A stretch of 40,211 nucleotides of DNA, taken from positions 1 to 40,211 of the IMG/VR virus record IMGVR_UViG_3300017527_000325; one strand, given 5' to 3'. A program made the position numbers and the translations under genes. Below the pieces are notes generated by a model. The model was not told the DNA's origin and made no database searches. It was given only the letters and a program-made list of their open reading frames with translations. Position 1 is the stretch's first letter. Every line of letters starts with the position of its first letter. The DNA is from a virus. Positions 6,871 through 25,985 of the stretch are shown one piece after another.

Positions 6871-7068
6871 ATGCCAGTAAAATTAAAGGTAGCTGAAGTT
6901 TTTGTAGCTATGTGGCAGAGGACAAGAAAAGTCAAGCATCCTGTAGGATCGGTATATAAAAGGTATTTCCCCACCAAAGCTGCCCAAGACAAATCGTGGG
7001 ACGCTCTGCAAAAAACTATGAAAAACAAAGGTATCAAAAAGAAAAAAGTGCTCGGGCACGCACCCTGA
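6871..7068 (+). CDS. Small basic protein with Y-x-R-Y-F domain (65 aa)
   Basis: This is the first gene of the late block and consists almost entirely of one copy of the repeated domain: a strand with AMWQRTRK, the turn HPVGS, the core VYKRYF and a helix. It ends in a Lys-rich tail. ATG 6871 is preferred over ATG 6868 and TTG 6850 because AAGGAG (6859-6864) then has six-base spacing. The domain is not one I can name. Related copies occur in ten other genes of this window, mostly between head genes, so a virion-associated role is inferred. Confidence 0.75.
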   Translation: MPVKLKVAEVFVAMWQRTRKVKHPVGSVYKRYFPTKAAQDKSWDALQKTMKNKGIKKKKVLGHAP

Positions 7069-7092
7069 TATAAACTATAAGGAGTAAATTCT

Positions 7093-7419
7093 ATGTCAAT
7101 GACAAGAGTCCAAAGCATAGTGAATGGGTTAGTTGATGACATTCTAACTGTCTCAGAGTTTATTAAAACTGCTGAAAAGAAGATTTATAATCCAGATGAG
7201 GTGGAGAGACTTGACTCAGAATCACTTCTATCAATGTATAACTCCGCTTCAACCCGTCAATTGAAAGTGTTGGAGATGTGTAGGAAAATGTTAATGGCCT
7301 CTAAAGGTACAGACACATATTCTGAGGAAGTCATGGCAATGGCCGCTCTCTTGGGCAACCTTTCGAAGGAGAATTTGGATCAATTAAAAGGATTCATAAA
7401 AACCAGTATAGCGAATTAA
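7093..7419 (+). CDS. Hypothetical helical protein, possible small terminase (108 aa)
   Basis: A wholly helical, soluble protein. The N-terminal half is acidic and the C-terminal half Met/Leu-rich, ending in a LSKENLDQLKGFI helix. TAAGGAG precedes ATG 7093. Position alone, just upstream of the large terminase and separated only by a short domain protein, makes it a candidate small terminase subunit. I see no clear helix-turn-helix, so this is only a suggestion. It lacks the repeated Y-x-R-Y-F domain found in both adjacent small genes. Confidence 0.7.
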   Translation: MSMTRVQSIVNGLVDDILTVSEFIKTAEKKIYNPDEVERLDSESLLSMYNSASTRQLKVLEMCRKMLMASKGTDTYSEEVMAMAALLGNLSKENLDQLKGFIKTSIAN

Positions 7420-7434
7420 CGAAAGGATCAAATC

Positions 7435-7737
7435 ATGGCAAAAAAGCAAGTTATCAGTGCTGTTGTTAAGAAGATGAGCGGCCCTTTTAAAGGTCAATCG
7501 TATACAAGGTACTTTAAATCCAGTGCGGAGAAGACCAAGTATATGGATGATTGGAAAAAAATGCAAGCTACGGGCAAATCTTCGAGGCGAGGAAACCCAG
7601 ACGCCATTTATCTGGAAGTCACCCGTTCTTATGGTCCTAATAAAGGATCCACTTACATGCGAAAATTTCCATCGGCCTCGGCCCGAGATGATTATTTGAA
7701 ACGTATGTCAAACAAGGGTAAATACGATTTAGATTAA
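7435..7737 (+). CDS. Protein with two copies of the Y-x-R-Y-F domain (100 aa)
   Basis: The whole protein is two tandem copies of the repeated domain. Copy 1 (about residues 9-39) has SGPFKGQSYTRYFK and a helix ending KYMDDW. Copy 2 (about 57-91) has VTRSYGPNKGSTYMRKF and a helix ending DYLKRM. A basic linker joins them (about 43-54). Both copies use the GPxKG turn subtype. AAAGGATCAAATC precedes ATG 7435. It lies 15 bases upstream of the terminase gene. The function is unknown; the two-domain layout would suit bridging two binding sites on DNA or on capsid subunits. Confidence 0.75.
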   Translation: MAKKQVISAVVKKMSGPFKGQSYTRYFKSSAEKTKYMDDWKKMQATGKSSRRGNPDAIYLEVTRSYGPNKGSTYMRKFPSASARDDYLKRMSNKGKYDLD

Positions 7738-7752
7738 GATTAAAGGATTAGA

Positions 7753-10077
7753 TTGAATCAATTAGCAGAAAATTCAGCCTCTTTTGATGAAATCTATAAT
7801 GTCTTGAGTGTTTTAGGAGGTCCAAGACAGATACGAGACATAGCTCCAATTGAGGAGTGGGTTAAATCTCCATTTTTCTTAGGATCTGAAGCAGAAACGT
7901 TGTACCCTTATTGGGCCGACGTCTTAGTCGACTTTTGTTCAGGCCCATTTAATGAAATAATATTAGGCGGCTCATTAAGATCAGGCAAATCACATACTGC
8001 TCTCCTTCTTGCTATTCGAAAACTATATGAACTTTCCTGTTATTACCCAATACCTTCGATGTTTAATTTATCATCAACATCATTAGTATTATTTATGTAT
8101 TTGTCTCTTTCATTAACACAGGCAAATATGCTCGGCCTTGGCCGTATTCGTAGGATGTTAGATCGTATCCCCTATTTTAAGAAAAACTTTCCCCGAAACA
8201 CTGAAGTAGACTCTCTAATTAAATTTGATGATCCTGCGTTAATGATGATAGGCGGATCTTCTCTCGGACATTTTAAAGGATCTGACCTATTCTTTCTTAT
8301 TTTTGACGAAGCTAATTTTGCAAAAGGCTCCGTTGAAATGAAATTTGGAAATGCTGTTGAAATATATAGAGAATCCAGTATTCGTCGAAAATCAACCTTC
8401 TCTGTAGAGGGCATTGAGAACGGGATTGGTGTTATTGTTTCTTCAGCGGATACCCAGACTTCATTTGTTGAAAAACATATAAAAGAAGTCAAAAATGATC
8501 CGAGTGTAATGATCATTAACGCTGTAGCGTATGAAGTACAGCCTTCTCGTTATAGAAATATGGGTACATTTCTAGTTTTTGAAGGAGATGAACTTGTTGA
8601 TCCCTTCCTTCCCGAGGAAGACGTAGATTCTTCTCGCAATTTTTGGACAGTATACAAAATTAATCCACAAGCTAAATTTGACATTTCGGAGTATCCACCT
8701 GAACTACAAGTCAAGTTCAGAAGAGTTCCTAACACTTTTATACAAGCCTTTAGAAAAGATATATTTGGCTCTCTCAAAGATGTATGTGGCATAGCCGTTG
8801 GTCAAGAAGGGCGTTTCTTTTCAAATAGAGTTAAATACAACGAGGCCTTTCCCAAAGGTTCCGAAGATCAACATCCGTTTACAAAAGAAACAATTACGGT
8901 ATCATATCTGGATTTGGACAAGATAGAGTATTGGTTTAAAAAGGGAGTAGAATTTGATCCTAACATGATATATTTTGGGGGCATCGATCAATCAGTAGTA
9001 AATGATTGTACCGGAATAGCATTAGGTCATATAGATCCTAAAAATACAAGATTCGCTCTTCATATGGATTTCTTCTTACAAATTCTTCCCCCTAAAAAAC
9101 CAGGCAAAATTTCCCCTGAGAAAGTGGCTGATTTTTTCATATGGTTAAAAAAGGAGAAGGATGTACGTAATTTAAAAATGTCTCAAGACTGGTACGCAGC
9201 GCCTCAAACAACACAGACATTCCACCTAGAAGGCATTGATTCAGAGATATTCTCTGTTGATAGGAATTGGGATGCGTATAGATCTTTTGCCGGATCAATT
9301 TTAGACGGAAATGTATCTGGTTATAACTATACGCCATTTAAGGAGGAGCTTTTTGATTTACTCCAGAACAACGAAACCAAAAAGGTAGATCATCCTGCTG
9401 GAGGATCTAAAGATGTTACCGATGCTGGTACTCATGTCCATAGTCAAGCTTTAAATGAATATATGGAACTCAAAGGCGGGGTGAAATTTGTACAGGAATT
9501 TGGTGCTAAAAATATTAAAAAGTTCGAATATCAAGAACATGCTGATTTAGTGGGTGGTCTTTGGTTTGGTCCTGGGCCGTTTTATTTTTGTTGGATGTTC
9601 CCAATGTGGAAAGAGGATAAGTTCCAACTATATGTTCTCGACGAATATGTAGATTTCTCTTCTCAGATAGAAACTAGAGTTGATGATATTAGACGAAGAA
9701 CAGCAACTTATAACCGCCATATAAAAATTGGAGCCGATCCAACTGGAAGAATAAAGGGCGATCATTCTAAAACCTCTCCTCTCATGCAATATCGTAAAGC
9801 GGGCTTATCTGTAAGATGCAGAAAGACCTTGGATCGAATGTATTTTGAAGGTGTACGTAATACAATCAATGAAATAGATGATAATGGAGACCCTTGCTTT
9901 TTTGTTCAAGAAGATCGATGCCCAATAATGATAAATGCTCTTAGGAGAGCCAAATTTAAAATGAGACGGAAGGTGGTATCTGGCTCATTAGAACTAACTG
10001 AGGAAACCTACCCTCTCTTTGCTCTGAGATTTGGCCTCGAGGAAGCAATGACAAAATCTACGATAACTGGATATTGA
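7753..10077 (+). CDS. terL: Terminase large subunit with extra C-terminal domain (774 aa)
   Basis: This is the DNA-packaging motor ATPase/nuclease. It has Walker A GGSLRSGKS (72-80), Walker B FLIFDEA (181-187) and a VSSADTQ coupling segment. An RNase H-like nuclease follows, with D412 in GGIDQS, D479 in MSQDWY and D554/D557 in SKDVTDA. Most relatives end soon after that last motif, but here about 210 residues follow. These look like a second nuclease-type fold: GGLWFGPG (601-608), YVLDEY (627-632), GADPTGR (660-666). Its first acidic residue appears replaced. The start is TTG 7753 with AAAGGA upstream. The stop nearly abuts the portal start. Confidence 0.92.
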   Translation: MNQLAENSASFDEIYNVLSVLGGPRQIRDIAPIEEWVKSPFFLGSEAETLYPYWADVLVDFCSGPFNEIILGGSLRSGKSHTALLLAIRKLYELSCYYPIPSMFNLSSTSLVLFMYLSLSLTQANMLGLGRIRRMLDRIPYFKKNFPRNTEVDSLIKFDDPALMMIGGSSLGHFKGSDLFFLIFDEANFAKGSVEMKFGNAVEIYRESSIRRKSTFSVEGIENGIGVIVSSADTQTSFVEKHIKEVKNDPSVMIINAVAYEVQPSRYRNMGTFLVFEGDELVDPFLPEEDVDSSRNFWTVYKINPQAKFDISEYPPELQVKFRRVPNTFIQAFRKDIFGSLKDVCGIAVGQEGRFFSNRVKYNEAFPKGSEDQHPFTKETITVSYLDLDKIEYWFKKGVEFDPNMIYFGGIDQSVVNDCTGIALGHIDPKNTRFALHMDFFLQILPPKKPGKISPEKVADFFIWLKKEKDVRNLKMSQDWYAAPQTTQTFHLEGIDSEIFSVDRNWDAYRSFAGSILDGNVSGYNYTPFKEELFDLLQNNETKKVDHPAGGSKDVTDAGTHVHSQALNEYMELKGGVKFVQEFGAKNIKKFEYQEHADLVGGLWFGPGPFYFCWMFPMWKEDKFQLYVLDEYVDFSSQIETRVDDIRRRTATYNRHIKIGADPTGRIKGDHSKTSPLMQYRKAGLSVRCRKTLDRMYFEGVRNTINEIDDNGDPCFFVQEDRCPIMINALRRAKFKMRRKVVSGSLELTEETYPLFALRFGLEEAMTKSTITGY

Positions 10078-10078
10078 T

Positions 10079-11617
10079 ATGCCAAACTTTAGCAAGATAG
10101 TTACTGACATAGTAAATCAAGGTTTTAGTCAGACACTGGCTCAGGAGAGGCAGGCGGAATTGGATAAAATAGGGAAAAGTTGGGATTTCTATTACGGAGA
10201 CCAAGAGAAATATATAGCAAAGTACCGAGGAGAAAGTCAAGAAGACTATGATGATAAAGATAAAATGGTCTTCAACTATACCAGATCTGTAATAGATGAA
10301 TATCTCAATGGGGTTTTTGCTAAACCAGTCTCTATAGTATATAAGGATAAGAAATATCAGAAGACTTGGGATGAAATGACGGATCCCATAACCTTCTTTA
10401 AAATAGTTTTATTTCTTAAAAAGGTTCAGAGAATAGCGGAACTATCCAAATTATGCTTGGTAATGCTTCGATGGAATAATGAAACTAAGAGTGTTTATTT
10501 TGAAGACATTCGAGGTGAATTCGTTAACTTTATTCCTGACGAGAAGAACCCCAAAGAAATTGGAGCCGTTGTAATATCATATGTTTATGATACGGGAGAT
10601 CCAGACATAAATAGACGGTTTTTAAAACGTATAGAGATCTGGGATAAGAATAAATGGGAAATTTGGTTACATAGCCCAGCTCTTAGAGAAGAAAAGAAAG
10701 TATCTTCTGGTAAGAATCCTTACGGGTTTATCCCTGGTATTCGCTTTGTACCTGAAGAAGACGACAACACTCACTATGGACTGAGTTCTACTGAAGATAT
10801 AGTCAAAGTGAATGAAGTGTATAATAATCTATGGACTTCATTAGTTCGGATCTGTATTATGCAGTCATTTTCAGTGTTGGTAGTCAAGTCTGATGGTAAT
10901 ATTGAACTTACTATAGCCCCTACACGTTTCTTAAAACTGGAGAATGTTGATGACGCTGACGCAAGTTACATCACACCAAGCCCAAAAATCTCAGATGTTG
11001 AGAAAGTCTTACTCGATCTCAAGAATGAACTCCAGGACTTTTCGAAAGTACCATCAGAGGTCCTTCAAGCGTCAAAGGCGAAATACCCGTCTTCAGGATA
11101 TGCTCTCAGAATAAAAAGGATTCCGATTGAACAAGTGTGGGAGTCCCGTAGAATGTCTTACGGGCCCTCTTTGAAAGATTTATCACGCAAAGCGATAGTG
11201 GTGGATAAAGTTCATAGAAATGAATCTCCTCCTAACTTCAAAGATATCAAAGTTCAAGTGGGATTTACAAATACTATCCCTGCATATTCTCCACAAGAAC
11301 AAATGATAATAGACCAGTCAGATTTGAGATATAATTTAATAACTCCAGTTGATCTGATGATAAGAAAATACCCTCATTTAACTCAGGAAGAGGCCAAAGC
11401 TAAAATAAAAGAAAATAAAAAGGTTACTGAAGAGTTATTAGGGGAACCTGGGCAAAATCTACCCAATCCTCAAGATGAAAATAAGAACATTAAAGGCCTT
11501 ATGAACAATCCGGACATGAACGTGTATGCATACCAGAAGAAAAACAAGAAAATCCCTAATGAACAGAAAAAGGTAGCATATCGCAAAGGACAATCTGATA
11601 AGGAGAATCCAGAATAA
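10079..11617 (+). CDS. Portal protein, SPP1-like (512 aa)
   Basis: The portal forms the dodecameric ring at the head vertex through which DNA enters and leaves. Recognition rests on position straight after terL, length, and SPP1 gp6-type features: an N-terminal FYYGDQEKYI, then FNYTRSVIDEYLNGVFAKPV, a YGFIPGIRFVPEED wing/stem segment, a helical region with NEVYNNLWTSLVR, and a SSGYALRIKR segment followed by a long C-terminal helix. The C-terminus (about residues 445-512) is Asn/Lys/Glu-rich and probably disordered. It overlaps the next small gene by one base (TAATG), so the two are probably co-translated. Confidence 0.88.
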   Translation: MPNFSKIVTDIVNQGFSQTLAQERQAELDKIGKSWDFYYGDQEKYIAKYRGESQEDYDDKDKMVFNYTRSVIDEYLNGVFAKPVSIVYKDKKYQKTWDEMTDPITFFKIVLFLKKVQRIAELSKLCLVMLRWNNETKSVYFEDIRGEFVNFIPDEKNPKEIGAVVISYVYDTGDPDINRRFLKRIEIWDKNKWEIWLHSPALREEKKVSSGKNPYGFIPGIRFVPEEDDNTHYGLSSTEDIVKVNEVYNNLWTSLVRICIMQSFSVLVVKSDGNIELTIAPTRFLKLENVDDADASYITPSPKISDVEKVLLDLKNELQDFSKVPSEVLQASKAKYPSSGYALRIKRIPIEQVWESRRMSYGPSLKDLSRKAIVVDKVHRNESPPNFKDIKVQVGFTNTIPAYSPQEQMIIDQSDLRYNLITPVDLMIRKYPHLTQEEAKAKIKENKKVTEELLGEPGQNLPNPQDENKNIKGLMNNPDMNVYAYQKKNKKIPNEQKKVAYRKGQSDKENPE

Positions 11618-11796
11618 TGGCTACTAAAGAAAAGAAACAAGCTTTAAAAGCTGCTTTTGTTAGAACACGGGGTAAAAATGCTGGTGAGTATTATATTAGA
11701 TATTTTAAAACACAGGATCAAATGAAAAAGTCATTAGAACAAATGGCTGCTCACCTATTGATTAATGCTGAAGTAGAGATGATGGAGCAAAAGTAA
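11617..11796 (+). CDS. Small single-domain Y-x-R-Y-F protein (59 aa)
   Basis: ATG 11617 overlaps the portal stop codon (TAATG), with AAGGAG about 13 bases upstream. The 59-residue product is one copy of the repeated domain (about residues 11-41): AAFVRTRGKNAGEYY, then IRYFKTQ and a helix with two Met residues, followed by a second helix rich in Met and Glu. It is easily missed because it is so short. A domain copy directly coupled to the portal gene supports a head-associated role. Confidence 0.8.
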   Translation: MATKEKKQALKAAFVRTRGKNAGEYYIRYFKTQDQMKKSLEQMAAHLLINAEVEMMEQK

Positions 11797-11808
11797 TACT
11801 ACGCAATT

Positions 11809-12279
11809 ATGGAAACTTTACAAGAATTTACAGCCTGGTTGCCGCGTTTATACGGCCCTAATAAGGGTAAAAAATATAAACGTGTTTTTAAAGACGAGGC
11901 TCACAAAGAGCGTATTGTTAGAAAGTACCGAATACTTGAAGCAGAACAAAACATGTTGCCGAAAAAACGTAATCTAAAATATGAGGAGATGGCCAGAGTA
12001 TCGAGGAGGGAGAGGACCATAAAGCTTGTTCGAAAAATAGTAGAAAATAAAGCCAATCTAATACCTGAGGAAGAAATAATGCAGGTGATAGAAAAGTCGG
12101 TATCACCAACCAAGCTCCGAATAATGTCCTTTGAACTTAGAGCCTTTGGATATAATGCACACGCTATATTAGCTGAAGGTAAAGCTGAATTTTTAGAAAA
12201 CAAGGAAGTTAAGAAATTTAAAGACCAAGATCTCTATAAGAAAATAATGGAAGTGAAAAAGAAACATGCCCTCATCTGA
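11809..12279 (+). CDS. Y-x-R-x-F domain protein with helical tail (156 aa)
   Basis: Residues 7-37 form a GPNKG-subtype copy of the repeated domain (WLPRLYGPNKGKKYKRVFK plus helix). The remaining 120 residues are strongly basic and helical (MARVSRRERTIKLVRKIV, then alternating acidic and basic helices). The last 14 bases overlap the start of the head morphogenesis gene. The ribosome site before ATG 11809 is weak, so translation may rely on coupling to the short gene upstream. The helical part matches nothing I know. Confidence 0.75.
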   Translation: METLQEFTAWLPRLYGPNKGKKYKRVFKDEAHKERIVRKYRILEAEQNMLPKKRNLKYEEMARVSRRERTIKLVRKIVENKANLIPEEEIMQVIEKSVSPTKLRIMSFELRAFGYNAHAILAEGKAEFLENKEVKKFKDQDLYKKIMEVKKKHALI

Positions 12280-13480
12280 AGTGATAAATATAGGATACGT
12301 TTTAGTAAAGGACGTATGGAAACAAGAGACTATAATAGGTCGCTTTTTAGATGAATTAGAGGACAAATTCAAATATTTCTTAAGAGGAGTAGATAGAAAA
12401 GTATCTTCGATTTATGATGAAGTTTTTGATAGCTTATCTCTTTCAGAAGATGGCATAGTAGAAAATACCATTGAAAATATAAGTTTGGTATCTTTACTAA
12501 TGGAGAGAATTGAAGGGTTGCAATTCTACATAAAACCCAGATTATTCCAAATAATAAGTGAAGGGCGTTACGAGTTATTTTCTAATATAAGAGACCGTGA
12601 ACAAAATATCATGCATCTCCTTAGCAGCATAGGTATATCTGATGATAGAATATTCCTTACGGATGAGAATGAAGCTATTCAAGAGAATTTGAGAAATAAT
12701 GTTCCGAGATGGGTAGGATCTACATTCAAGAAATGGTTAGATTTTGCTTATGATACTTTTTATTTAGGAATATCAAGAGGTTTTAATCTAAGCCAATTCA
12801 AAGAACTGTTTTATAACAAAGATGGATCTATAAAGATAGGTTCTAGTCTAGTAGGTGAGGTAGTTGTTCAAACATTAGCACAATTAATGGTAGAGAAAGC
12901 ATCATACGCTATGCGTAGAGCTAAAGAATTGGAATATTATTACTGTTGGAATGCTAATCCAATGGACATGAGAACAAAAACTGAATGTCTAGAAGCTTGT
13001 TTCTCTGGTGTTATAACTGAATCTCAAATGGCCTCTGAACACGGATTTCCTCCTAGGTACACTTGTCGTTGCTCTATAGTTTATGTAAGACCTGAATGGA
13101 CTGGGATAAATCAGGGAATAAATATAGCATTGGAGGAACGTAGAGTAAAGCTTGTAAATGAATATACTGAAGCCCCACGTCAAAAATCACAATGGTTACA
13201 TTGGGGGAGAGTCCCAGTCTACGCAACGGATCCAATTAGGGCAGTAGGTTTGAAATATTATGCTCATATCAAAAAGAAAAAGAAGGTAGCTGAACGTAAT
13301 AAAGTTCCGGATTGGACTGTACCAGAAGAGGCCAGAAAGGAAGCTAAGGAATTTGAAGATTTTATAGATGCAGAAATAGTGAGGTCAATAGTGCTGGGCG
13401 CTCTTTCTCAATATGGAAATACAAATACCGCCTTACTTCCAGATAACCGTACCATAAAACTTTTGGATTATGAAGTGTAA
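12266..13480 (+). CDS. Phage head morphogenesis protein, Mu F/SPP1 gp7-like (404 aa)
   Basis: The N-terminal two-thirds are helical. At about residues 227-270 lies the family signature: WNANPMDMRTKTECLEAC, then SEHGFPPRYTCRCS, with paired cysteines and the HG-PP-CRC ending typical of Mu gpF-like minor head proteins. Family members are minor capsid proteins bound to the portal or taken into the procapsid, and they are needed for head assembly or infectivity. The C-terminal 120 residues are charged and helical. The start overlaps the upstream domain protein, and the order TerL, portal, morphogenesis protein is canonical. Confidence 0.85.
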   Translation: MPSSEVINIGYVLVKDVWKQETIIGRFLDELEDKFKYFLRGVDRKVSSIYDEVFDSLSLSEDGIVENTIENISLVSLLMERIEGLQFYIKPRLFQIISEGRYELFSNIRDREQNIMHLLSSIGISDDRIFLTDENEAIQENLRNNVPRWVGSTFKKWLDFAYDTFYLGISRGFNLSQFKELFYNKDGSIKIGSSLVGEVVVQTLAQLMVEKASYAMRRAKELEYYYCWNANPMDMRTKTECLEACFSGVITESQMASEHGFPPRYTCRCSIVYVRPEWTGINQGINIALEERRVKLVNEYTEAPRQKSQWLHWGRVPVYATDPIRAVGLKYYAHIKKKKKVAERNKVPDWTVPEEARKEAKEFEDFIDAEIVRSIVLGALSQYGNTNTALLPDNRTIKLLDYEV

Positions 13481-13482
13481 TT

Positions 13483-14034
13483 ATGGGTTTAAAAAAGGTC
13501 GTAAAAGCCACTGTAAAAAGAGTTCGAACAGGAAAGAACAAAGTAGGCTCTGAATACACCCGTTATTTTAGAGACGAAGCTCAAAGAGCCAAAGTTATGG
13601 AATCACGACCTGCTATTAAAATAGAGGTCAAAAGAGTACGTGATAGAAAGAAAAATCCTGTTGGTAGTAAATATACGAGATACTTTGATGATTTGGGAGA
13701 TATGGCCAAGGTAATGTCTGGATACGTAAGGTACTATGGCCCAGAAGCTGGGAAAATGATTGGTGGGGGTTTGATGACGGCGGGAGGTACGGCAGGGTGG
13801 GCGGCGTCTTTATTTTTGGCTGGCAACAAAAGTCAAGTTGGAGCAGCTGTGTTGAAGAAACTCTTAGGTATGTCCATAAGCTCTAGAGCAATAGAAAAAG
13901 GGGTTAATTTATTTGAGGCCGGGAAGAATGGAATACAAGTTAAGAAATCTATTATGGATAACCTTAAGAAGAATTTAAAAGCTAAAGGGTATAACTCGAT
14001 ATATGACTATGCTAAAAAACACGATTTAAAATAA
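13483..14034 (+). CDS. Two-copy Y-x-R-Y-F domain protein with hydrophobic segment (183 aa)
   Basis: Two GS-subtype domain copies lie at about residues 6-38 (VKRVRTGKNKVGSEYTRYFR) and 45-78 (VKRVRDRKKNPVGSKYTRYF). A possible third vestige follows (VRYYGPEAGKM, about 83-93). Then comes a Gly/Ala-rich hydrophobic stretch of about 23 residues (IGGGLMTAGGTAGWAASLFL), long enough to cross or insert into a membrane, and a basic helical C-terminus. The start lies two bases after the upstream stop. This combination would suit a packaged protein ejected into the host envelope, but that is inference. Confidence 0.75.
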   Translation: MGLKKVVKATVKRVRTGKNKVGSEYTRYFRDEAQRAKVMESRPAIKIEVKRVRDRKKNPVGSKYTRYFDDLGDMAKVMSGYVRYYGPEAGKMIGGGLMTAGGTAGWAASLFLAGNKSQVGAAVLKKLLGMSISSRAIEKGVNLFEAGKNGIQVKKSIMDNLKKNLKAKGYNSIYDYAKKHDLK

Positions 14035-14045
14035 AGGTAGTTAAA

Positions 14046-14189
14046 ATGACTGAAGAAGACAAATCCCATTTAAAAGTTAAACATCTGAATGTAATGACCG
14101 CTTCTGATTATGACTCTGAAGATGTGAAGAAGGCGAAAGAAGATGCCAAAAGAAAAGCCGAGGCTGAGAAGCAAACTAGCGGGAGGTAA
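14046..14189 (+). CDS. Very small charged protein (47 aa)
   Basis: ATG 14046 follows AAAGGTAG and encodes 47 residues dominated by Lys, Glu, Asp and Ala. The last half is a continuous charged helix (SEDVKKAKEDAKRKAEAEKQ), probably a single coiled-coil or a disordered helix. Its 3' end overlaps the next gene by 47 bases in another frame. No family is recognised. Support comes from the ribosome site, tight spacing and clean composition; the overlap lowers certainty. Confidence 0.55.
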   Translation: MTEEDKSHLKVKHLNVMTASDYDSEDVKKAKEDAKRKAEAEKQTSGR

Positions 14190-15072
14190 AAAAGCTAGTG
14201 TTGCCAAAGCTGTTTTCAAAGTAATTGTACAGCGAGTTCGGGCTGGTGCACACGAGATAGGCTCTGATTATGTACGTTATGTAAAAGATGCTCAAGAGCA
14301 AATGGCTCTAATAAAGAGATATAAGAAACTAGAGCAATTAAGAAAGTCTCATTCAGAAGCTAAGATTTTATTTGGTAGTGAGGAGATTTTTAAAAATCGT
14401 ATGAAGAAATTTGTTGATGAGGTTGTGGAAAAGGGGTTAATGGATGCCGGATCTGCTGTATCATTCCAAACAACAGCTTCTGCCAAGGATTTAGTTCAAT
14501 TTGAAAATATTCTTAAAAACCGTTTAGAATATATTAAAAATGCACCAAAACCAATGTTACCAGCTCCTAAACCTAATCCATATGAGCAATATTTCGTGGC
14601 TCCCAAATATGGGACTAAGGAATATTATACTTCATATAAAGCTATAAATAAACAAACGGGGAAAATAAAACAAGGAAAATTTGACGACTTGATGGATTTG
14701 GATAAAAGATCTTGGGATATAGTTGAAGCTACTCCAGATATCCATAAACAATTAAAACAAAAAGAAGTGAAGCAGAGATTACAGCATTATCGAAATGAAC
14801 TAGCAAAAAAAGAAAGGTATGCTAAAGCAGGGGAAACTTACGTACCGGAATTACCTCCTCGAAAAGAAATTCCTTTAGCATATCAACCAGCCTCTGGAAA
14901 TGAACCCATGACCACTAAAATACTGGATGATTTTGATGCACCTTCTCATTTGAGAAGAGCTCAAATGCAAACTGTGTCAGGTCCTAACAAAGGAAGAATT
15001 TATTATCGTTATTTTGAAACACCCAGGCAACGTGTGGAATTTGAAAGAATGGTGCAGGAGGTTAGTAAATAA
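14143..15072 (+). CDS. Two-copy Y-x-R-Y-F domain protein, N- and C-terminal (309 aa)
   Basis: One domain copy is near the N-terminus (about residues 24-57, GS subtype: VQRVRAGAHEIGSDYVRYVK). Another is at the very C-terminus (about 275-307, GPNKG subtype: TVSGPNKGRIYYRYFETP). So a single protein carries both subtypes. Between them are a Pro-rich linker (PKPMLPAPKPNP) and a segment (about 170-200, QTGKIKQGKFDDLMDLDKRS) resembling the early protein at 1755. The start is ATG 14143, inside the preceding small gene, because no later start codon precedes the domain. A scaffold-like or bridging role is possible. Confidence 0.75.
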   Translation: MPKEKPRLRSKLAGGKKASVAKAVFKVIVQRVRAGAHEIGSDYVRYVKDAQEQMALIKRYKKLEQLRKSHSEAKILFGSEEIFKNRMKKFVDEVVEKGLMDAGSAVSFQTTASAKDLVQFENILKNRLEYIKNAPKPMLPAPKPNPYEQYFVAPKYGTKEYYTSYKAINKQTGKIKQGKFDDLMDLDKRSWDIVEATPDIHKQLKQKEVKQRLQHYRNELAKKERYAKAGETYVPELPPRKEIPLAYQPASGNEPMTTKILDDFDAPSHLRRAQMQTVSGPNKGRIYYRYFETPRQRVEFERMVQEVSK

Positions 15073-15242
15073 TGCCCTTCAAGTCTGCTAAGCAAGAAAT
15101 TGCTATGAAAATCAATTCACCTGTTGTTTGGAAAAGATGGGTTAAGAAATACGGCCACCATCCCGGTTACGCTGCGGAATCAAAAAGATCAGCTAAAAGG
15201 GCTGCTAAGAGTAGAAAAAGGAAGACTAAAAGAAGGAGTTAA
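15072..15242 (+). CDS. Highly basic small protein (56 aa)
   Basis: ATG 15072 overlaps the upstream stop (TAATG). The product is 56 residues with a short ordered N-terminus (INSPVVWKRWVKKYGHHPGY) and an almost purely Lys/Arg/Ala/Ser tail (KRSAKRAAKSRKRKTKRRS), like protamines or basic DNA-condensing peptides. It lacks the Y-x-R-Y-F core. A role in neutralising packaged DNA or binding RNA is plausible on composition alone. Its stop is two bases before the next ATG. Confidence 0.75.
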   Translation: MPFKSAKQEIAMKINSPVVWKRWVKKYGHHPGYAAESKRSAKRAAKSRKRKTKRRS

Positions 15243-15244
15243 TT

Positions 15245-15670
15245 ATGGGTGGATGGGGAAAAAGAACTAAAGCTCTCTATAGATGGGTGCCTATACTTAG
15301 TGGTCCTAATAAAGGAAAAATGGTTCGACGTTATTGGAAAACTAGGGAGGGTATGGAGAAGAGTTTGAGGAATACCTATGGCAAAACCAAAGAGCAGGCC
15401 GAGAGTATCTGGTTAGGATTTGGTGAGGAGATGAAACACTATGCTATAGATGCTTTCGCTAGGGGTTGCCAAAGAGAAATTACCCGATATATGACTAAGA
15501 AACTACCAATATCTAAAAAACGAAACAAAGGTATAGCGGAGAAAATGACTGATGCATTAAAAAGAGCAGGTAGGAAAGAAATAGGGCGCATCGTTAGAAA
15601 AGGAGTCAAGAAAGCATCAGAGCCGTTAACCAGAGCCGAACGCGAAGCTATATACAGAGAATTTGAATAG
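15245..15670 (+). CDS. Y-x-R-x-[FW] domain protein with helical tail (141 aa)
   Basis: Residues 10-42 form a GPNKG-subtype domain copy with a variant core (WVPILSGPNKGKMVRRYWK), where Trp replaces the usual Phe. The C-terminal 95 residues are basic and helical, with KLPISKKRNKGIAEKMTDAL and an Arg/Lys-rich end. AAGGAGTTAATT precedes ATG 15245. It lies tightly between other small structural-region genes. The helical tail differs from those of the other family members, consistent with one shared targeting domain attached to diverse payloads. Confidence 0.75.
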   Translation: MGGWGKRTKALYRWVPILSGPNKGKMVRRYWKTREGMEKSLRNTYGKTKEQAESIWLGFGEEMKHYAIDAFARGCQREITRYMTKKLPISKKRNKGIAEKMTDALKRAGRKEIGRIVRKGVKKASEPLTRAEREAIYREFE

Positions 15671-15681: not shown

Positions 15682-16395
15682 ATGCCAAGAACTAAAGAAA
15701 ACCAAAAGTTCAGTAAACCTGAAAAACCAAGCAATACTTATAAGTGGCAATTGGTTGTAACAAGAATGTATGGTAACACTATGGGGAAGGTGTATAAAAG
15801 AACCTTTAAAACTGAACGGGAGATGAATTTATACATTGAAAGGAACTCTGATACTGATGAGGTTCCTGTTGCTGCGTATAAGGATTGGGAGTATGATTTA
15901 GGAGCACCTAAAGATAAAAATTTACTTGGTAATTTAATGCAAGGAGCTAAGAATCGTTTAGGATTCTATGAATTATCTCAGGATGAGCGTTTTTTCTTAT
16001 TGGGTTTTAAAGAAGAGCATGGACGATTTCCACACATGTGGGAAAATCCTTTTATGTTTGATCGTGCTGGAGCATTAATTGACACTGCTTTTACAGCATC
16101 CGCTATATATGGGGGCCCTGCCCTTGCTAGACAATTAACAAAAGGATTGCTTAAAGGAGTATCTCTCGCTGTAGAAAAGAAACTCGCCAAGATGACAAAA
16201 TCTCAAATTAAGAAATATGTTAAGAACTTTGGCCGCGCTCAAATATCTAAAAACTCAGGAGTTAAGGATGCCATAAAAAGAGGAGCCAAATATACCTGGA
16301 CTGGTGGAAAAACGGCCATGAATTTAGAATATAAAACTTGGATAGTAGAAGAATACACTAATCTGGCAAAAGATGCAGTTAATGCATTAAAGTGA
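15682..16395 (+). CDS. Y-x-R-x-F domain protein with Gly/Ala-rich helical region (237 aa)
   Basis: A domain copy at about residues 22-53 (VVTRMYGNTMGKVYKRTFKT) is followed by a linker, a FFLLGFKEEHGRFPHMW segment (about 105-121), and a moderately hydrophobic Ala-rich helix (TAFTASAIYGGPALA, about 136-150). Basic amphipathic helices then run to the end. A GGAG with long spacing precedes ATG 15682. The arrangement (domain first, then potentially membrane-active helices) parallels the 13483 protein. Its function is unknown; an internal head protein is one possibility. Confidence 0.72.
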   Translation: MPRTKENQKFSKPEKPSNTYKWQLVVTRMYGNTMGKVYKRTFKTEREMNLYIERNSDTDEVPVAAYKDWEYDLGAPKDKNLLGNLMQGAKNRLGFYELSQDERFFLLGFKEEHGRFPHMWENPFMFDRAGALIDTAFTASAIYGGPALARQLTKGLLKGVSLAVEKKLAKMTKSQIKKYVKNFGRAQISKNSGVKDAIKRGAKYTWTGGKTAMNLEYKTWIVEEYTNLAKDAVNALK

Positions 16396-16693: not shown

Positions 16694-16745
16694 GGGTTGA
16701 TCCCTAAATCGGATCTCCTAATTGAATGAAGGAGACTTATTAAAA

Positions 16746-17483
16746 ATGGTAGAACCAATAAAAAAAGACACTGACAATAAAGAAACTCCTCCTGTAAAAC
16801 CGGATGAGACACCGTTAGCTGACAAAGACACTTCGAAATACACAGAGATTGAGAAAGACAAGTACATAGAAACTCTGAAGTATGAGAATGCCAAACGTCG
16901 AATCACTAACAAGACTCTCCAAGAAACGCAGACTAAGACTGAGAGCCTTTTGTCTGAAACTGTCACAAAATTAGAAGAGGCCACCTCAAGACTCACAGAA
17001 CTTGAATCTAAGGAAAAAGCCGCTGAATTAAAAGACGCATCGGCTTTAGAAAAGGCGACTGCTGATTTGGATGAGGAGCGAAAAAAGGTGTCGGACCTCA
17101 CTTCTAAAGTATCTAAGTACGATGAAAGACTGGCTACTCAAAATCAGAAACTGCAGGTCCAAGAAAGAAAATTTACAATTGACAGGCTGGTAACTCAGCT
17201 TGGTTATACCTTTTCATCAGCTTATGAAAGAGATGGATTTATATCATCAGTGACACAACAGAACGAAGACGGGACGTTTGTCATGGGAGATGAGGAAATT
17301 ATTTTGGAAGCTAAGCAATTTGTTCAAAAATCCAAAACTCCACCAAAAACTCCCGATGGAGGTCCTCCAAACAGACATACAGAAACACCGCTTTCGGAAG
17401 AAATCAATGCCCTTCTTAAAAAGGATCATTTGAACGAAACCGAGAAAACGCGTTTGGACGAGCTTCTGGAGAAGGTGGGGTAA
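16746..17483 (+). CDS. Putative scaffolding protein (245 aa)
   Basis: Called from position directly before the major capsid gene and from composition. A Pro/Asp-rich N-terminus is followed by a long coiled coil (about residues 35-150, rich in Glu, Lys, Thr, Leu). Then come a short ordered segment (RLVTQLGYTFSSAYERDGFI) and a Pro-rich, charged C-terminus ending in a helix (LDELLEKVG), the usual capsid-binding end of scaffolds. It would template procapsid assembly and then leave. ATG 16746 is chosen over TTG 16722, which lies upstream of the GAAGGAG; spacing from that site is rather long. Confidence 0.8.
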   Translation: MVEPIKKDTDNKETPPVKPDETPLADKDTSKYTEIEKDKYIETLKYENAKRRITNKTLQETQTKTESLLSETVTKLEEATSRLTELESKEKAAELKDASALEKATADLDEERKKVSDLTSKVSKYDERLATQNQKLQVQERKFTIDRLVTQLGYTFSSAYERDGFISSVTQQNEDGTFVMGDEEIILEAKQFVQKSKTPPKTPDGGPPNRHTETPLSEEINALLKKDHLNETEKTRLDELLEKVG

Positions 17484-17509: not shown

Positions 17510-18532
17510 ATGACTGATGTATTACATTTAAACACTAACACAGCATCTGACCTCGACTATTGGAGGCCGTTTATTTGGGCCAAAAAGGTTTATGAAGAGG
17601 CCAAAACCCGCATGTATTGGAATCGGTTCTCCGGTCCTGAAGGCTCCGGAATGCCGGTTATCGTAAAACGTGATCTCATCACGCAACCCGGTCAGGCTAT
17701 TTACATTAGCCAATTGGCACATCTCACTGGATCTGGCCGTTCAGGTACCCAAAAATTGAGAGGGTACGAAGAGAAATTAACGATTCGCAGGGTGACTTGC
17801 ACTCCTGTATGGTATCGTCATGCCGTTTCCGATGATGTGATCGCTGAAAAGCAAATTAATCAGAACTTCCGGTCCAAAGCTCAGCCCGCATTATCATATT
17901 GGATGGCAAAGAAAATGGATACCTCCATGTGGACAGCGGCAAGAGTCAACACCGCTTCGGGATTTGAAAGCACTGTCCCTTCAGTTCTTTATGGAAATGA
18001 CGCCACCAGTCAGTTTACGATCGACTCTGCTGATGATTTTGGTGTTGCTGAAATCCGTAAAGCTGCTGCAGTTTTGGAAGGTAACGACATCCCTCGAATT
18101 CGCATCTCCGGAATGCCGGCAGGTGAAGGGTACTATCTCTGTTTCATCCATCCTTATCAAGCGTACAGCTTGAAGAATGATTCTGAATGGATTGACAATA
18201 TGCAAGAGGCGTATTCTCGTGGTAGAGATAATCCTCTCTTTACTGGTGCCCTGGGTGAAGTTGATGGCGTCATCGTTCATTCTACTACCCAAGCAGTGCG
18301 TGAACAAAACGCAGATTCCCCTGCAATGTATACTTCCAGGGCAGTAATCATGGGACAAGAGGCCCTTTGCCGTGGCATGAATGAGGAAGTTGTTTGGACA
18401 GAACAAGTTGAAGATTATGACTTCGAACTTGGCATCGGTGTTCGAGCGGCTTGGCATGACCTAATTTTGAGCTCCAAAGCTCTGGTACATGTCATCACAG
18501 CCTGCTCCAACCCTGATGGTTCTGACTCTTAA
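17510..18532 (+). CDS. Major capsid protein, N4 gp56 family (340 aa)
   Basis: Length and motifs match the N4-gp56-type HK97-fold capsid family: GMPVIVKRDL near residue 45, a tyrosine/aromatic-rich middle, YLCFIHPYQAYSLKND (about 207-222) and NPLFTGALGEVDGVIVH (about 240-256), then an IMGQEAL segment. It forms the icosahedral shell. A clear CTGGAGGTAAC site precedes ATG 17510. Codon choice looks more GC-rich than in neighbouring genes, as expected for the most highly expressed virion gene. A long hairpin follows the stop. Confidence 0.93.
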   Translation: MTDVLHLNTNTASDLDYWRPFIWAKKVYEEAKTRMYWNRFSGPEGSGMPVIVKRDLITQPGQAIYISQLAHLTGSGRSGTQKLRGYEEKLTIRRVTCTPVWYRHAVSDDVIAEKQINQNFRSKAQPALSYWMAKKMDTSMWTAARVNTASGFESTVPSVLYGNDATSQFTIDSADDFGVAEIRKAAAVLEGNDIPRIRISGMPAGEGYYLCFIHPYQAYSLKNDSEWIDNMQEAYSRGRDNPLFTGALGEVDGVIVHSTTQAVREQNADSPAMYTSRAVIMGQEALCRGMNEEVVWTEQVEDYDFELGIGVRAAWHDLILSSKALVHVITACSNPDGSDS

Positions 18533-18539
18533 AAAATAG

Positions 18540-18580: not shown

Positions 18581-18586
18581 TAATAA

Positions 18587-19154: not shown

Positions 19155-19496
19155 ATGCCAGCAAAGCAGATATTTAAAACAACCGTCAAAAGAGTCCGTA
19201 AAAGAGTTTATGCATTAGGTTCCGAATATACACGCTACTTTAAAAGCAATTCTGAAAAAAAGATGATAGTAGATAGAATCACTTCTAATCAGGCAAATTC
19301 CCTAGTTAGAAAATATGCTGGAAAAGAGAAAATGCCCATTCATTATGATTTCAGTGATAAGTTCGGGGAAGAAGTAGCGTCTAAAGTTAGGCAAATTGCC
19401 AAAAGACGATATGGAGTACCGTTACATTACGATGCACAAGATGCATTGGTAAAAATAAGACATCAAGTTTGGGATGCGAAAGGCTGGGCCAAATAA
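19155..19496 (+). CDS. Y-x-R-Y-F domain protein, paralogue of 25596 protein (113 aa)
   Basis: A near-consensus GS-subtype copy of the repeated domain lies at about residues 6-39 (TVKRVRKRVYALGSEYTRYF). A C-terminal region of about 70 residues follows that aligns with that of the protein at 25596 (NQANSLVRKY versus RANALIKAY; KRRYG versus FSKYG). The two are therefore full-length paralogues on either side of the first sugar-modification block. A poly-G ribosome site precedes ATG 19155, and the stop abuts the TTG start of the glycosyltransferase fusion. Confidence 0.78.
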   Translation: MPAKQIFKTTVKRVRKRVYALGSEYTRYFKSNSEKKMIVDRITSNQANSLVRKYAGKEKMPIHYDFSDKFGEEVASKVRQIAKRRYGVPLHYDAQDALVKIRHQVWDAKGWAK

Positions 19497-22241
19497 TTGT
19501 TAGCAAGACATCTTTTCAGAACTAAGAAAATCCACCATCAAAGGAATGAATATACGTTTACCACTGAGTGGAAACCTGTTCCCACTATTTCTTTATTTAA
19601 AAAACTAAAAACTTATAAGAATAGCTTTGAGGTTATCTGCAATTTTGATCTGAGACCCTTTGAACAAATACACAAACACATAGTCTTTGACAAAGATCTA
19701 GTTAAAACAGCTAGAAGATCTGTAGCTAAAAAGCTTTCAAGAATACCTTTTGTAGTAAAACAAGCTTATAGAGTAGATGAAGGTATTTACATATTTAAAA
19801 TTATAAATTATGATAAGCTCAGATTTAATGAAGTAGGGAATTTGGATAGGGATGTTAAGGTTTTGATATACAGATCGCTAGGTGGACTTGGTGATATAAT
19901 CATGACTTTCCCAATTCTACAAGCGTCGCACGAAAACTATGTCAACTACGACATAACATATGCTTGTCCAGGAAAATTCCTGCCATTAGTAGAAAATAAC
20001 CCGTATTGCAAAGCTCGTGAATTCAATATTCAATTAACAAAAGAGCCGTGGGATCTCATAGTTGATATGACTAAAGATTGTATAAAATACGAAATTAGTC
20101 ACCAACCCGATGTGGACAAAAATAGAGTTGAGATTTTTAGAGATGCCTGTGGTTTAGGGTACAATAAAAATATAAGACCCAAATTATACCTATCTGAGTC
20201 AGAAATAGCTTTAGCTAAACATGAACTTGAAGGAACTGGTTTAAAAATAGGATTGGTAATTGACGCCAACGCTAAAGTTCGCAAGTGGCATAAATTCCCT
20301 CAACTAAGAAATGAATTATTAAAGAAATATCCAGATTCTACGATTTTAGAGATCAGAATCAGTAAACCAAAGGATTGGAAAGAACATCCAAGAGTAAGGG
20401 GGATTTTTGATAGACCAATTAGAGAAGTTGCTGCTCTTGTTAATGAATGTGATTTAGTTATTTCTCCAGATACGGGTATAGCACATATCTCCTCAGCTTT
20501 AAGAATCCCAACTTTGTGGATATTTACTCATATAGATGGTGCAATTAGAACCAAGAATTATGACAATGCTTGGTATATAATGAGTGACTTTAAAGAATGT
20601 CCGGTTGGAAAACCCTGTTGGTATGAGATTTCCTGTTCAGATCAATTATATGAAAAAACCCCAAATCCTTATTGTTCTAGCTCTATATCAGTTGTGGATG
20701 TTATGGAAAAAGCCAAGGAGATTCTGAGCATACCCAACATATCGTATTGTGTTGTTTCATATAACCAGAATGAAATAACTGAGCGTTGTATAGGTCTTAT
20801 TAACAAGTTCAAGAAGTATAACGATGAAGTGATTCTGGTGGATAATGGTAGCGAAATTCTACCCAATGTCGATGTTCGTACTTTCATAACTAATGATGAG
20901 AATAAAGGCTGCATCCTTGCCAGAAACCAAGCTCTGCAAGCAGCCCGAGGCCGTCATGTGTTGACATTAGATAATGATCAATATGTATCACTTTCTTCTA
21001 TCCATAGGCTTATGAACATGGACGAAGATATTGTAGGGGTCGAGGCGTGGTCGATGGATGATGCCGGATATGCTTTCGATATAAATGAGAACAAAGGACC
21101 ACTCGCTTATGTAGGTGCCGGGGGAATGCTTACGAAGAGAGATATTTGGGAAGATCTCGGGTATTTTGATGAACAATACGCACCTGCTTGGTTTGAAGAC
21201 CCTGATATTTGTTTCTATGCTAAGGAGAAAGGGTATAGTATTAATTATGTCGAAGATCACAGAATAGAGCATCTGGCACACCGAACAATATCGGCCCAAA
21301 CAACTTTTGATTCAAAAAGAGCCTGGGATCGAAGTCATCTATTATTTATGGATAAGTGGTCTAAACGCGGTGTTAGAAAAAAGCCGAAAATTACGATCAT
21401 CGTCGATGTCGTTGGTTGGGCATGGGACTATAAAACCCGCCAAATTGTTCGCTATTTATCTGATGAGTTTGATTTTGAAGTTATATACGGTCCACCCACC
21501 AATTTAGGTCAGATAGAGAATCTCTTTACTTTCGAATGCAATAAACGTTATATGGGTACTGTTACATATAATGCTCTCATTACTGGAGTAACCGCTCATG
21601 TATATCAGAATTTTAATGGCCATGGTGAGATTTTAAAGAATGCTGCGGGTGTACATGCCAATTCAAAGATGTTGTATGATGAAGTTAAAAGTTATAATCC
21701 CAACACTTTTTATACTCCAAATGGGGTCGATATAGAACTTTTTAAGTATGAACCTCTTGAAAAAAGAGACCATCTGGTTGCTGGGTTTGTTGGAAAGGAT
21801 ATAAAGAGAAAAGGGCTGAGGGATTTTATTATACCAGCATGTGAAAAAGCTGGAGTTGTCCTTAAGATGAATATAAACAAGGCCAGAAGGTCATCCACTA
21901 TTAAATTAGAGGATATGCACGAATTCTATGAAGGGGTCGATGTTATTATCATCGCTTCTGATATGGATGGGACACCTAATCAACTTCTTGAAGGGGCTGC
22001 TGTTGGTCGCACGTTTATTTCGAATGCCATAGGGAACGTGCCTGAATTTCAATGTACTGATAATGGATTTATTGTTGAACGAGAGATAGATTCTTATATT
22101 GAAGCTCTAAATTATCTTAAAGAAAACAGAGATGTGTGTGAACGAATGGGCAAAATGGCACGTCTTACAGTGGAGAAAGAATGGACTTGGGAACATCAAG
22201 TAGAGAATTACCGAAACTTATTTAGAAAGGTAGCCGTATGA
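19497..22241 (+). CDS. Triple-domain glycosyltransferase fusion (914 aa)
   Basis: Three transferase modules are joined. About residues 120-400 resemble GT9 heptosyltransferases (RSLGGLGDIIMTFPILQA at 125; SPDTGIAH near 323). About 415-625 are a GT2-type GT-A fold (SYCVVSYNQNE, then VDNGSE, NKGCILARNQAL and LDNDQ). About 629-914 resemble GT4 (TPNGVD near 740; SDMDGTPNQLLEGAAVG near 820). The first 115 residues match nothing known. Such a chain could add several sugars in sequence. The start is TTG 19497, directly after the previous stop; it overlaps the next gene by four bases. Donor and acceptor are unknown. Confidence 0.85.
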   Translation: MLARHLFRTKKIHHQRNEYTFTTEWKPVPTISLFKKLKTYKNSFEVICNFDLRPFEQIHKHIVFDKDLVKTARRSVAKKLSRIPFVVKQAYRVDEGIYIFKIINYDKLRFNEVGNLDRDVKVLIYRSLGGLGDIIMTFPILQASHENYVNYDITYACPGKFLPLVENNPYCKAREFNIQLTKEPWDLIVDMTKDCIKYEISHQPDVDKNRVEIFRDACGLGYNKNIRPKLYLSESEIALAKHELEGTGLKIGLVIDANAKVRKWHKFPQLRNELLKKYPDSTILEIRISKPKDWKEHPRVRGIFDRPIREVAALVNECDLVISPDTGIAHISSALRIPTLWIFTHIDGAIRTKNYDNAWYIMSDFKECPVGKPCWYEISCSDQLYEKTPNPYCSSSISVVDVMEKAKEILSIPNISYCVVSYNQNEITERCIGLINKFKKYNDEVILVDNGSEILPNVDVRTFITNDENKGCILARNQALQAARGRHVLTLDNDQYVSLSSIHRLMNMDEDIVGVEAWSMDDAGYAFDINENKGPLAYVGAGGMLTKRDIWEDLGYFDEQYAPAWFEDPDICFYAKEKGYSINYVEDHRIEHLAHRTISAQTTFDSKRAWDRSHLLFMDKWSKRGVRKKPKITIIVDVVGWAWDYKTRQIVRYLSDEFDFEVIYGPPTNLGQIENLFTFECNKRYMGTVTYNALITGVTAHVYQNFNGHGEILKNAAGVHANSKMLYDEVKSYNPNTFYTPNGVDIELFKYEPLEKRDHLVAGFVGKDIKRKGLRDFIIPACEKAGVVLKMNINKARRSSTIKLEDMHEFYEGVDVIIIASDMDGTPNQLLEGAAVGRTFISNAIGNVPEFQCTDNGFIVEREIDSYIEALNYLKENRDVCERMGKMARLTVEKEWTWEHQVENYRNLFRKVAV

Positions 22242-22927: not shown

Positions 22928-22930
22928 TAA

Positions 22931-24207: not shown

Positions 24208-24785
24208 AACTCCATCTTTGTTGTGGAACAGTTTATCTTAAAGATTATATAAATGTAGATATTCAAGGCTATTTTAAAAATAACTCTAGTGAAGTAGGGC
24301 TGTTAGAAATACCAACATCAATAGACAATTATTACAGAAACCCATTAAAATCAGAACCGTTGTCAAAAAGAGGACATTTTGTAATAGATGAAAGAGTTGA
24401 TATATTGGTACCTTGGCCATGGAAAGAAAATACTATAAGTGAGATAGTAATGATTCAATCTCTGGAGCATTTTCTTCCTCATGAATGTAAATTTATTATA
24501 TCAGAATGTTACAGAGTTTTACAATTAGGTGGTCGTTTATTACTTGATGTTCCTGACATTCCGGCGTCTGTTAAGAAATGGCAAGCTCTGGATATAAATA
24601 TTGAATTCTTAAATAGACTCATTTACTGTAATCATAAGGATAAGTATTCAATACATAAAATATGCTTTACTGAAGGATCGCTTACAGATTTACTTTTGTA
24701 CAATGGTAATAAATGGGGAATAACTTTTAAAGAAATAGTTGAACATGAATACCCAACTATTGGACTAGAGGCAATAAAACAGTGA
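24204..24785 (+). CDS. SAM-dependent methyltransferase (193 aa)
   Basis: The opening LHLCCGTVYLKDYINVDIQG is the motif I variant of the YP_177-type or COG4627-like methyltransferases, where a G-x-G loop becomes CCG and is followed by YINVD. IVMIQSLEHF (about residues 76-85) is the post-motif with the conserved EH pair, and VLQLGGRLLLDVPD is motif III. It is found typically in surface-polysaccharide clusters. Four-base overlaps on both sides place it in one coupled operon with the glycosyltransferases. Methyl capping of a glycan is the likely role by context. Confidence 0.78.
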   Translation: MKLHLCCGTVYLKDYINVDIQGYFKNNSSEVGLLEIPTSIDNYYRNPLKSEPLSKRGHFVIDERVDILVPWPWKENTISEIVMIQSLEHFLPHECKFIISECYRVLQLGGRLLLDVPDIPASVKKWQALDINIEFLNRLIYCNHKDKYSIHKICFTEGSLTDLLLYNGNKWGITFKEIVEHEYPTIGLEAIKQ

Positions 24786-25312
24786 ATTACGAACATTTCG
24801 GCCCTGTAGACTTACAAATACCTTGGCACTTGTATCTTGGCCAATATTTAGAAAATAAAGACATCCTAGATATTGGATCTGGTAGAGGCAATGCTAAAGA
24901 ACGTTTAGGAATTAACGGTAATCATGTTATAACTCATGATGTAAATAGAGCTTTTATGAATCAGGTAGATATAATATGTGCCCCAGGAAATTTAGTAGGT
25001 ATGTGGGATATAGTCACTGCATTTGATGTAATAGAACATGTCTGCTATGACCCAGGCAAATTCATCGAAGAATTATTCAGATTAGCTAGAGAAGCTATTT
25101 TTATAAGTACTCCAAATAAACTTGAAATTGATAAAGATTGGCACTACTTTCCAGTAGAGTTTTTGGAGATAGTTGATAAGACCGTTTCGTTTACAGATAG
25201 GGTGTATTTTCAAAGATTTAAATATGGAGATATTGACGAAGTAAAAGAAGTAACTCGCAAAGAATTCATTACTAATTCTAGTTATGCTTTAGGTTTTTTA
25301 GGATATCTTTAG
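24782..25312 (+). CDS. SAM-dependent methyltransferase (176 aa)
   Basis: Class I methyltransferase with ILDIGSGRG (residues 28-36), ITHDVN as the second strand, and IVTAFDVIEHV (about 79-89), the conserved D-x-x-E-H signature. IFISTPNK then follows, with a short C-terminal domain. The start is GTG 24782, overlapping the upstream stop; no nearby ATG preserves motif I. It completes the first sugar block and is followed by a frameshifted domain gene. The substrate is probably a glycan or lipid-linked sugar, by context only. Confidence 0.78.
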   Translation: MNYEHFGPVDLQIPWHLYLGQYLENKDILDIGSGRGNAKERLGINGNHVITHDVNRAFMNQVDIICAPGNLVGMWDIVTAFDVIEHVCYDPGKFIEELFRLAREAIFISTPNKLEIDKDWHYFPVEFLEIVDKTVSFTDRVYFQRFKYGDIDEVKEVTRKEFITNSSYALGFLGYL

Positions 25313-25321
25313 GAGGAAATT

Positions 25322-25584
25322 ATGAGTGAAAAGAAATTGCAAAACAAATAATCAAGGCTGTTGTGAAAAGGACGCGCAAAAGATTTCATCCATTGGGATC
25401 AAAATACGAGAGATATTTCAAGAACACTAAGGCTGTTGAAAAAGTTGCCAATAACTATATCAAAATCATGAAAAAACAGAAGGCGATGGGTAAGGAATTT
25501 AAAGAAGGTATGATGAAGATGGATGCAGAAACTCCAGAAAGCGTTAAAAAACTTTTAAAAGCCAAAGGATTGAAGATCTTTTAG
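25322..25584 (+). CDS. Y-x-R-Y-F domain gene with apparent 1-nt frameshift near its start
   Basis: AGGAGGAAATT is followed by ATG 25322, but that frame stops after nine codons (TAA 25349-25351). One base back, the frame reads EIAKQIIKAVVKRTRKRFHP and on through a full GS-subtype domain (LGSKYERYFKN) and a basic helix to TAG at 25582. A single missing A in the AAAA run near 25329-25332 would restore MSEKEIAKQ. Either the gene is frameshifted, the assembly has an indel, or translation starts at GTG 25363 and loses the first strand. Confidence 0.65.
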
Positions 25585-25595
25585 GAGTACGTGTA

Positions 25596-25985
25596 ATGCC
25601 TAAAAAAGTTGTCAAAACAGTCGTTCAAAGAGTTCGAAAGCGAGTACATGCCATCGGATCTAAGTATGTACGTTACTTCAAGAATGAACTTGAAATGAAG
25701 ACTGCTATGGATATCATGGCCAGACAACGAGCCAATGCTCTGATCAAAGCTTACATAAAAGGAGAAGCAACTAACAAGATATTTACTAAACGTCCCACTT
25801 TACCAATGGCAAAAAATCGTATCTTGACAGAAGTTAAGGCAATCGCATTCAGTAAATATGGTATCAAAGGTAGCGCTTTGGATGTCTTAAAGGAAATGAA
25901 GAAACGGGCTCCCAAACCTGTTCCTGAACCTCCCAAGACTTGGAAAAGATATCATACCAAAGAAATAAAGGATTATGGTAAATGA
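25596..25985 (+). CDS. Y-x-R-Y-F domain protein, paralogue of 19155 protein (129 aa)
   Basis: This is the closest copy to the domain consensus: about residues 5-37 hold TVVQRVRKRVHAIGSKYVRYFK plus a helix with two Met residues. The rest aligns with the 19155 protein (ARQRANALIKAYIKGE; AIAFSKYG), then a Pro-rich tail (PKPVPEPPKTW). AGGAGTACGTGTA precedes ATG 25596. It overlaps the next glycosyltransferase by four bases, just as its paralogue abuts the first one. This suggests the sugar genes were inserted beside, or moved with, this gene. Confidence 0.8.
   Translation: MPKKVVKTVVQRVRKRVHAIGSKYVRYFKNELEMKTAMDIMARQRANALIKAYIKGEATNKIFTKRPTLPMAKNRILTEVKAIAFSKYGIKGSALDVLKEMKKRAPKPVPEPPKTWKRYHTKEIKDYGK

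Follow-up and report, generated by a model that had tools for sequence, protein, structure and literature searches.

The loading of cargo proteins into virions is understood in few phages, and phage T4 is the standard case. The T4 capsid-targeting sequence is a short N-terminal peptide that is removed by the prohead protease. It is present on the internal proteins IPI-III and on Alt, which are loaded into the head and delivered with the DNA (PMC9391042, PMC5512222). A second described arrangement is that of the MuF-type and polyvalent effector proteins, in which effectors are carried by the minor head protein. In two members of the phage lineage studied here (L007 and L020), ADP-ribosyltransferase domains are fused to this protein.

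Here we describe module A, a repeated small basic domain encoded by an uncultured phage that is represented by an IMG/VR virus record of 40,211 bases (the entire stretch is hereafter called the window). Like the T4 signal, module A is one common sequence located on several otherwise different proteins. It differs in being a predicted folded domain of ~40 residues with no known sequence similarity to the T4 signal, and in its placement, which is usually N-terminal but includes internal tandem and C-terminal copies. It also differs from the MuF-type arrangement by being a separate small module. The best explanation of our findings is that module A would work like the T4 capsid-targeting sequence, to which it is not homologous and among whose members we do not class it.

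Fourteen copies of module A are encoded in the window

An earlier note on this DNA had proposed that 14 copies of the domain are distributed among 11 genes. A profile HMM was prepared from these 14 segments and used to search the 795 six-frame open stretches of the whole window. The same 14 places were recovered with i-Evalues of 1e-14 to 1e-18 and nothing further was found in the six frames, where all other scores were at or below 5 bits. Residue-shuffled controls reached a maximum of 9.0 bits (30 replicates). With leave-one-gene-out profiles, the copies were regained at 1e-6 to 1e-12, except for the weakest copy, in gene 15245 (0.0056), and the second copy in gene 14143 (0.0006). Because of these leave-one-gene-out results and the shuffled controls, detection of the module is not circular.

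The 14 segments align as a clean block. An expanded alignment of 19 copies from three phages spans about 43 residues (the length is otherwise roughly 40) and retains the pattern first noticed by eye, namely V-x-R, a glycine turn, a Y-x-R-Y-F strand and a final helix. The Y-x-R-Y-F strand forms the core, and each of the 19 copies keeps one invariant G and one invariant R.

All of the window copies reside on the plus strand. The first (6898..7020; HMM 56 bits, leave-one-out 2e-10) is within gene 6871-7068, whose 65-aa product is nearly a stand-alone module, and the next two are carried in tandem by gene 7435-7737 (7450..7563, 60 bits; 7603..7716, 55 bits). Gene 11617-11796, which overlaps the end of the portal gene, encodes a stand-alone module of 59 aa (11641..11754, 59 bits), and gene 11809-12279 has an N-terminal module (11827..11937, 55 bits). 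Two copies (13498..13605, 46 bits; 13612..13734, 46.5 bits) are present in gene 13483-14034, the C-terminal part of which is glycine-rich and hydrophobic. Gene 14143-15072 carries one copy near the N terminus (14212..14331, 50 bits) and one at the C terminus (14953..15063, 47 bits). N-terminal modules are also present in genes 15245-15670 (15272..15385, 53 bits), 15682-16395 (15742..15855, 54 bits), 19155-19496 (19173..19283, 47 bits) and 25596-25985 (25608..25724, 53 bits; the sequence used for fold prediction).

The gene list and the tandem copies match those originally proposed, with one correction that concerns the remaining copy (25351..25470, 54 bits). The ATG at 25322 is preceded by a good ribosome-binding site, yet its frame closes after 9 codons, and the frame read through the module is the neighbouring one, which is open at 25330-25581 and has GTG 25363 as its first common start. 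The gene (around 25322/25363-25584) is either frameshifted, through a sequencing error or a mutation, or begins at an internal start.

In addition, residues 171-200 of the 14143-15072 product have a 30-residue stretch in common with the product of 1755-1973 (47% identity, E 3e-5). These proteins are otherwise unrelated, and the stretch is possibly a further small shared domain.

Most module A genes are embedded among head genes

The neighbourhood is as originally described, with the carriers set among terminase, portal, head, scaffold and capsid genes. On the plus strand, the window encodes a portal protein (10079..11617; phrog_64, 1.5e-17), a minor head protein (12266..13480; homologues at 32-40% in relatives), a scaffold-like acidic coiled protein (16722..17483; also found immediately before the capsid gene in relatives, where it is conserved, its function being assigned from position) and a major capsid protein (17510..18532; phrog_334, 2e-46). 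Gene 7753, which has no family match, appears to be large-terminase-like based on its position and motifs. Most genes for module A proteins are embedded in the portal, minor head, scaffold and capsid run, where they overlap their neighbours or lie only a few bases apart from them. Carriers 19155, 25363 and 25596 are located downstream of the capsid gene, and the latter two are among sugar-modifying genes. The family of the minor head protein encoded at 12266 gave a best E of 0.18 against Phage_Mu_F, from only one of 12 members, and no prohead-type protease was identified with Pfam and PHROGs among the head-region genes scanned.

Two other features of this region were observed. A 56-residue, extremely basic protein (15072-15242; MPFKSAKQE...WVKKYGHHPG) adjoins the module A genes and is kept in seven relatives with 55-83% identity over the first 30-47 residues, a wider spread than that of module A; this small-protein family has no detectable match in mycobacteriophage Patience. 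Downstream, gene 19497-22241, whose product has 914 residues and several glycosyltransferase domains, is the first in an extended series of glycosyltransferase- and methyltransferase-like genes; in most relatives it likewise comes after the head genes.

Predicted fold and resemblance to nucleic-acid-binding domains

An AlphaFold2 model based on the 19-row alignment places strands at residues 6-11 and 23-28 and a helix at residues 31-43 (mean pLDDT 87, pTM 0.51). The same N-terminal strand-strand-helix arrangement is seen in a model of the full 15682 protein that is otherwise poor (pLDDT 51). Carrier proteins are unusually basic, with a median net charge per residue of +0.137 versus -0.014 for other phage proteins (p=1.6e-6).

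The domain had been called unrecognised, and our comparisons agree with this description. Nothing above cut-off was found in Pfam or in PHROGs (best E 0.011, to a family of unknown function), no match was found among PDB sequences, and the predicted fold gave nothing significant against BFVD viral models. Foldseek comparison with the PDB ranked MBD domains at the top, but non-significantly (best E 1.6, TM 0.31). A profile check for membership in a known, unrelated family likewise found none. Arm-DNA-bind_4 (the AP2/integrase arm family) was absent from the window by family profile and from the Pfam scan. Assignment of module A to a known DNA-binding family is unsupported by the PDB sequence, Foldseek and Arm-DNA-bind_4 results.

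Module A might nevertheless be a small nucleic-acid-binding domain, distantly of the MBD or AP2/integrase arm type, that is used by several late or takeover proteins; binding to DNA would then account for any such protein found in virions. A packaged DNA-binding module had been among the original guesses. The module is strongly basic, has conserved R and aromatic residues, has MBD domains as its top PDB fold matches, and resembles these folds in combining small basic strands with a helix. Furthermore, nucleic-acid binders typically occur in tandem and as stand-alone domains, and such copies here argue that the module acts itself, for example by binding DNA. This explanation is the main rival of the one proposed below, and we consider it possible though rather unlikely. 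The module is predicted to have two strands only, the comparisons with these folds yield no significant sequence or structural match, and nucleic-acid binding alone leaves unexplained both the location among head genes and the swapping of modules in relatives. This explanation and that of a head-loading tag are compatible if the tag is held first by the procapsid and later by the DNA.

Module A in related phages

Searches with the capsid and portal proteins led to 12 related viral records. Those that are complete enough have in common portal, minor head, scaffold-like and capsid proteins and a large glycosyltransferase. The original view that module A is confined to one phage was too narrow, as it is also present in two of these relatives. 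The L007 phage has a single copy that constitutes a 47-residue stand-alone protein (L007:8273), and the L008 phage has four copies, each close to the N terminus of its protein (the longest has 335 residues). A weak resemblance was also noted for the L008 gene at 4350 (iE 0.26). The module is absent from the records of the remaining relatives, which are partial, so this absence is not proof. Copy number varies widely among these phages (14, 4, 1 and 0), and the majority of carriers occur in a single phage only. The portal tree lacks the resolution to unite the module A phages in a clade or to separate them.

Broader searches were largely negative. Direct IMG/VR searches with single proteins or module alignments returned only the copies already known from the L008 phage, a search of 84,980 genomes brought up no prophage relatives within its sensitivity, and tblastn searches of named phages and plasmids with module A returned nothing, although the low-complexity filter limits such basic queries. 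As a separate observation, two accessory head-region proteins of relatives (L008:7224-7775 and L012:5660-6082) have a common core with a D...EVK pattern that recalls PD-(D/E)XK nucleases. A nuclease identity for this pair had no support in PDB or Pfam.

A different module occupies the same location in other relatives and in Patience

The L012 phage carries six copies of a second N-terminal module, called module B, in the gene region where other phages have module A, and the L010 phage carries one. Module B is basic and rich in Lys, Arg and Ala. It is shorter than module A and unrelated to it in sequence (hhalign probability 0.07% for the two profiles). In the records searched, modules A and B never occur in one and the same phage, and most relatives have neither. 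The N-terminal part of L012:7575 also looked by eye like a copy of module B, but the profile did not detect one there.

A module B query matched the cultured mycobacteriophage Patience, whose portal protein belongs to the same PHROG as that of the window (phrog_64). Patience gp11, 13, 14, 15, 17 and 18 begin with a common N-terminal module B and then differ, and their genes are located between those for the portal (gp8) and the minor head protein (gp20). A module B profile built from L012 and L010 only, without Patience, scored 17-29 bits at the N termini of gp13, 14, 15, 17 and 18, compared with 8.8 bits or less in 200 shuffles; gp11 shares the module by BLAST. Module B is thus like module A in being a repeated basic N-terminal module on different proteins encoded between the portal and the minor head or scaffold genes. 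One of its carriers is abundant in virions: a cryo-EM study that cites earlier proteomics reports gp15 to be one of three prominent particle bands and to have been identified by MS (PMC7150772). The annotation of the small basic carrier gp18 (L035:6001-6606) as a 'head maturation protease' looks doubtful and probably derives from phrog_12708.

Module A is joined to different, mostly unrelated protein segments

The proposal that one tag is joined to different payloads is borne out by the C-terminal parts of the window carriers, which are mostly unrelated to one another, and by the use of another module in relatives. Similarity extends slightly past the module in the pair 19155/25596 (47% over 55 residues). 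A sharp boundary is evident in the L008 phage, where DNA identity among three paralogues sets in at the start codon and is ~0.5-0.8 for ~45 codons, compared with ~0.1-0.35 upstream of the start codon and further downstream. Orthologues of the 15682 payload are found in L008, there joined to module A, and in L012, where the module is not detectable (9e-22 and 2e-19). Most window payloads have no relative anywhere searched.

It could be proposed that the carriers are small structural parts of the head that belong to one expanded family, such as cement, decoration or portal-associated proteins, that bind the capsid through the module and whose C-terminal parts have merely diverged. This would agree with their location among head genes, with the finding that several copies are almost only module, and with the proposal from a cryo-EM study that Patience gp15 is a minor capsid or capsid-linking protein (PMC7150772). 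We judge this explanation unlikely, given that divergence alone does not account for C-terminal parts that are unrelated even where the modules are 70-80% identical, that few carriers are found in more than one phage, and that the gp15 model was unlike the capsid density in that same study.

Copies of module A in the L008 phage exhibit dN values of 0.14-0.21 and dS values from 1.5 to saturated. These copies are therefore old and their protein sequence has been held, as might be expected if they have one common partner. The module B copies of L012 show the same boundary and dN/dS behaviour. Ordinary duplication of a short late gene and its fusion to neighbouring sequence, giving copies without a common current function, would accommodate the widely varying copy number, but it is very improbable because of this dN/dS result, with strong constraint at saturated synonymous sites, and given the invariant core residues across three phages.

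A putative exchangeable head-loading tag

We propose that module A marks virion cargo for loading into the head, and that such tags are exchangeable and specific to a phage. This reading fits because of the position of the genes, the basic charge, the common constraint, the changing payloads, the module swap and the one module B carrier proven to be in virions. A virion-targeting tag had been one of the original guesses. Gene position, the effector domains of the lineage and the parallel with module B, of which gp15 is a carrier (PMC7150772), speak for it indirectly, and module A is placed in virions by analogy with module B. Confidence in the proposal is only moderate because the virion step relies on this analogy.

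In this view, the small basic strand-strand-helix would serve for docking, and cargo proteins made late would enter the phage head by means of it. Their synthesis would coincide with head assembly, as suggested by the embedding of most of their genes in the head-gene run. One common partner, probably the procapsid scaffold or portal core and afterwards the packaged DNA, would hold the tag, and the payload would be delivered together with the DNA. Known or predicted virion-delivered phage effectors carry ADP-ribosyltransferase domains (PMC5512222), and such domains are present at the C termini of minor head proteins L007:5597-7939 (PF18760, 1e-7) and L020:11533-14181 (PF03496, 8e-15). These domains fit effector delivery in virions by this lineage.

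Several findings count against this proposal. A mere address tag would not be expected to occur twice in three genes or to make up nearly all of the proteins encoded at 6871, 11617 and L007:8273. The C-terminal copy in 14143, the three carriers downstream of the capsid gene, the relatives that lack both modules, and the suggestion by others that gp15 is non-internal (PMC7150772) likewise fit less well.

More broadly, and more tentatively, unrelated and exchangeable small basic tags might constitute a head-loading code in tailed phages, in which each phage puts its own tag on many cargo proteins and payloads are re-tagged on moving from one phage to another. A recognisable tag would allow virion-delivered effectors, including anti-defence proteins, to be read from genomes, and its folded form could be used to load chosen proteins into phage heads. 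The parallel with Patience makes the question testable in a cultured phage, whose laboratory host is Mycobacterium smegmatis.
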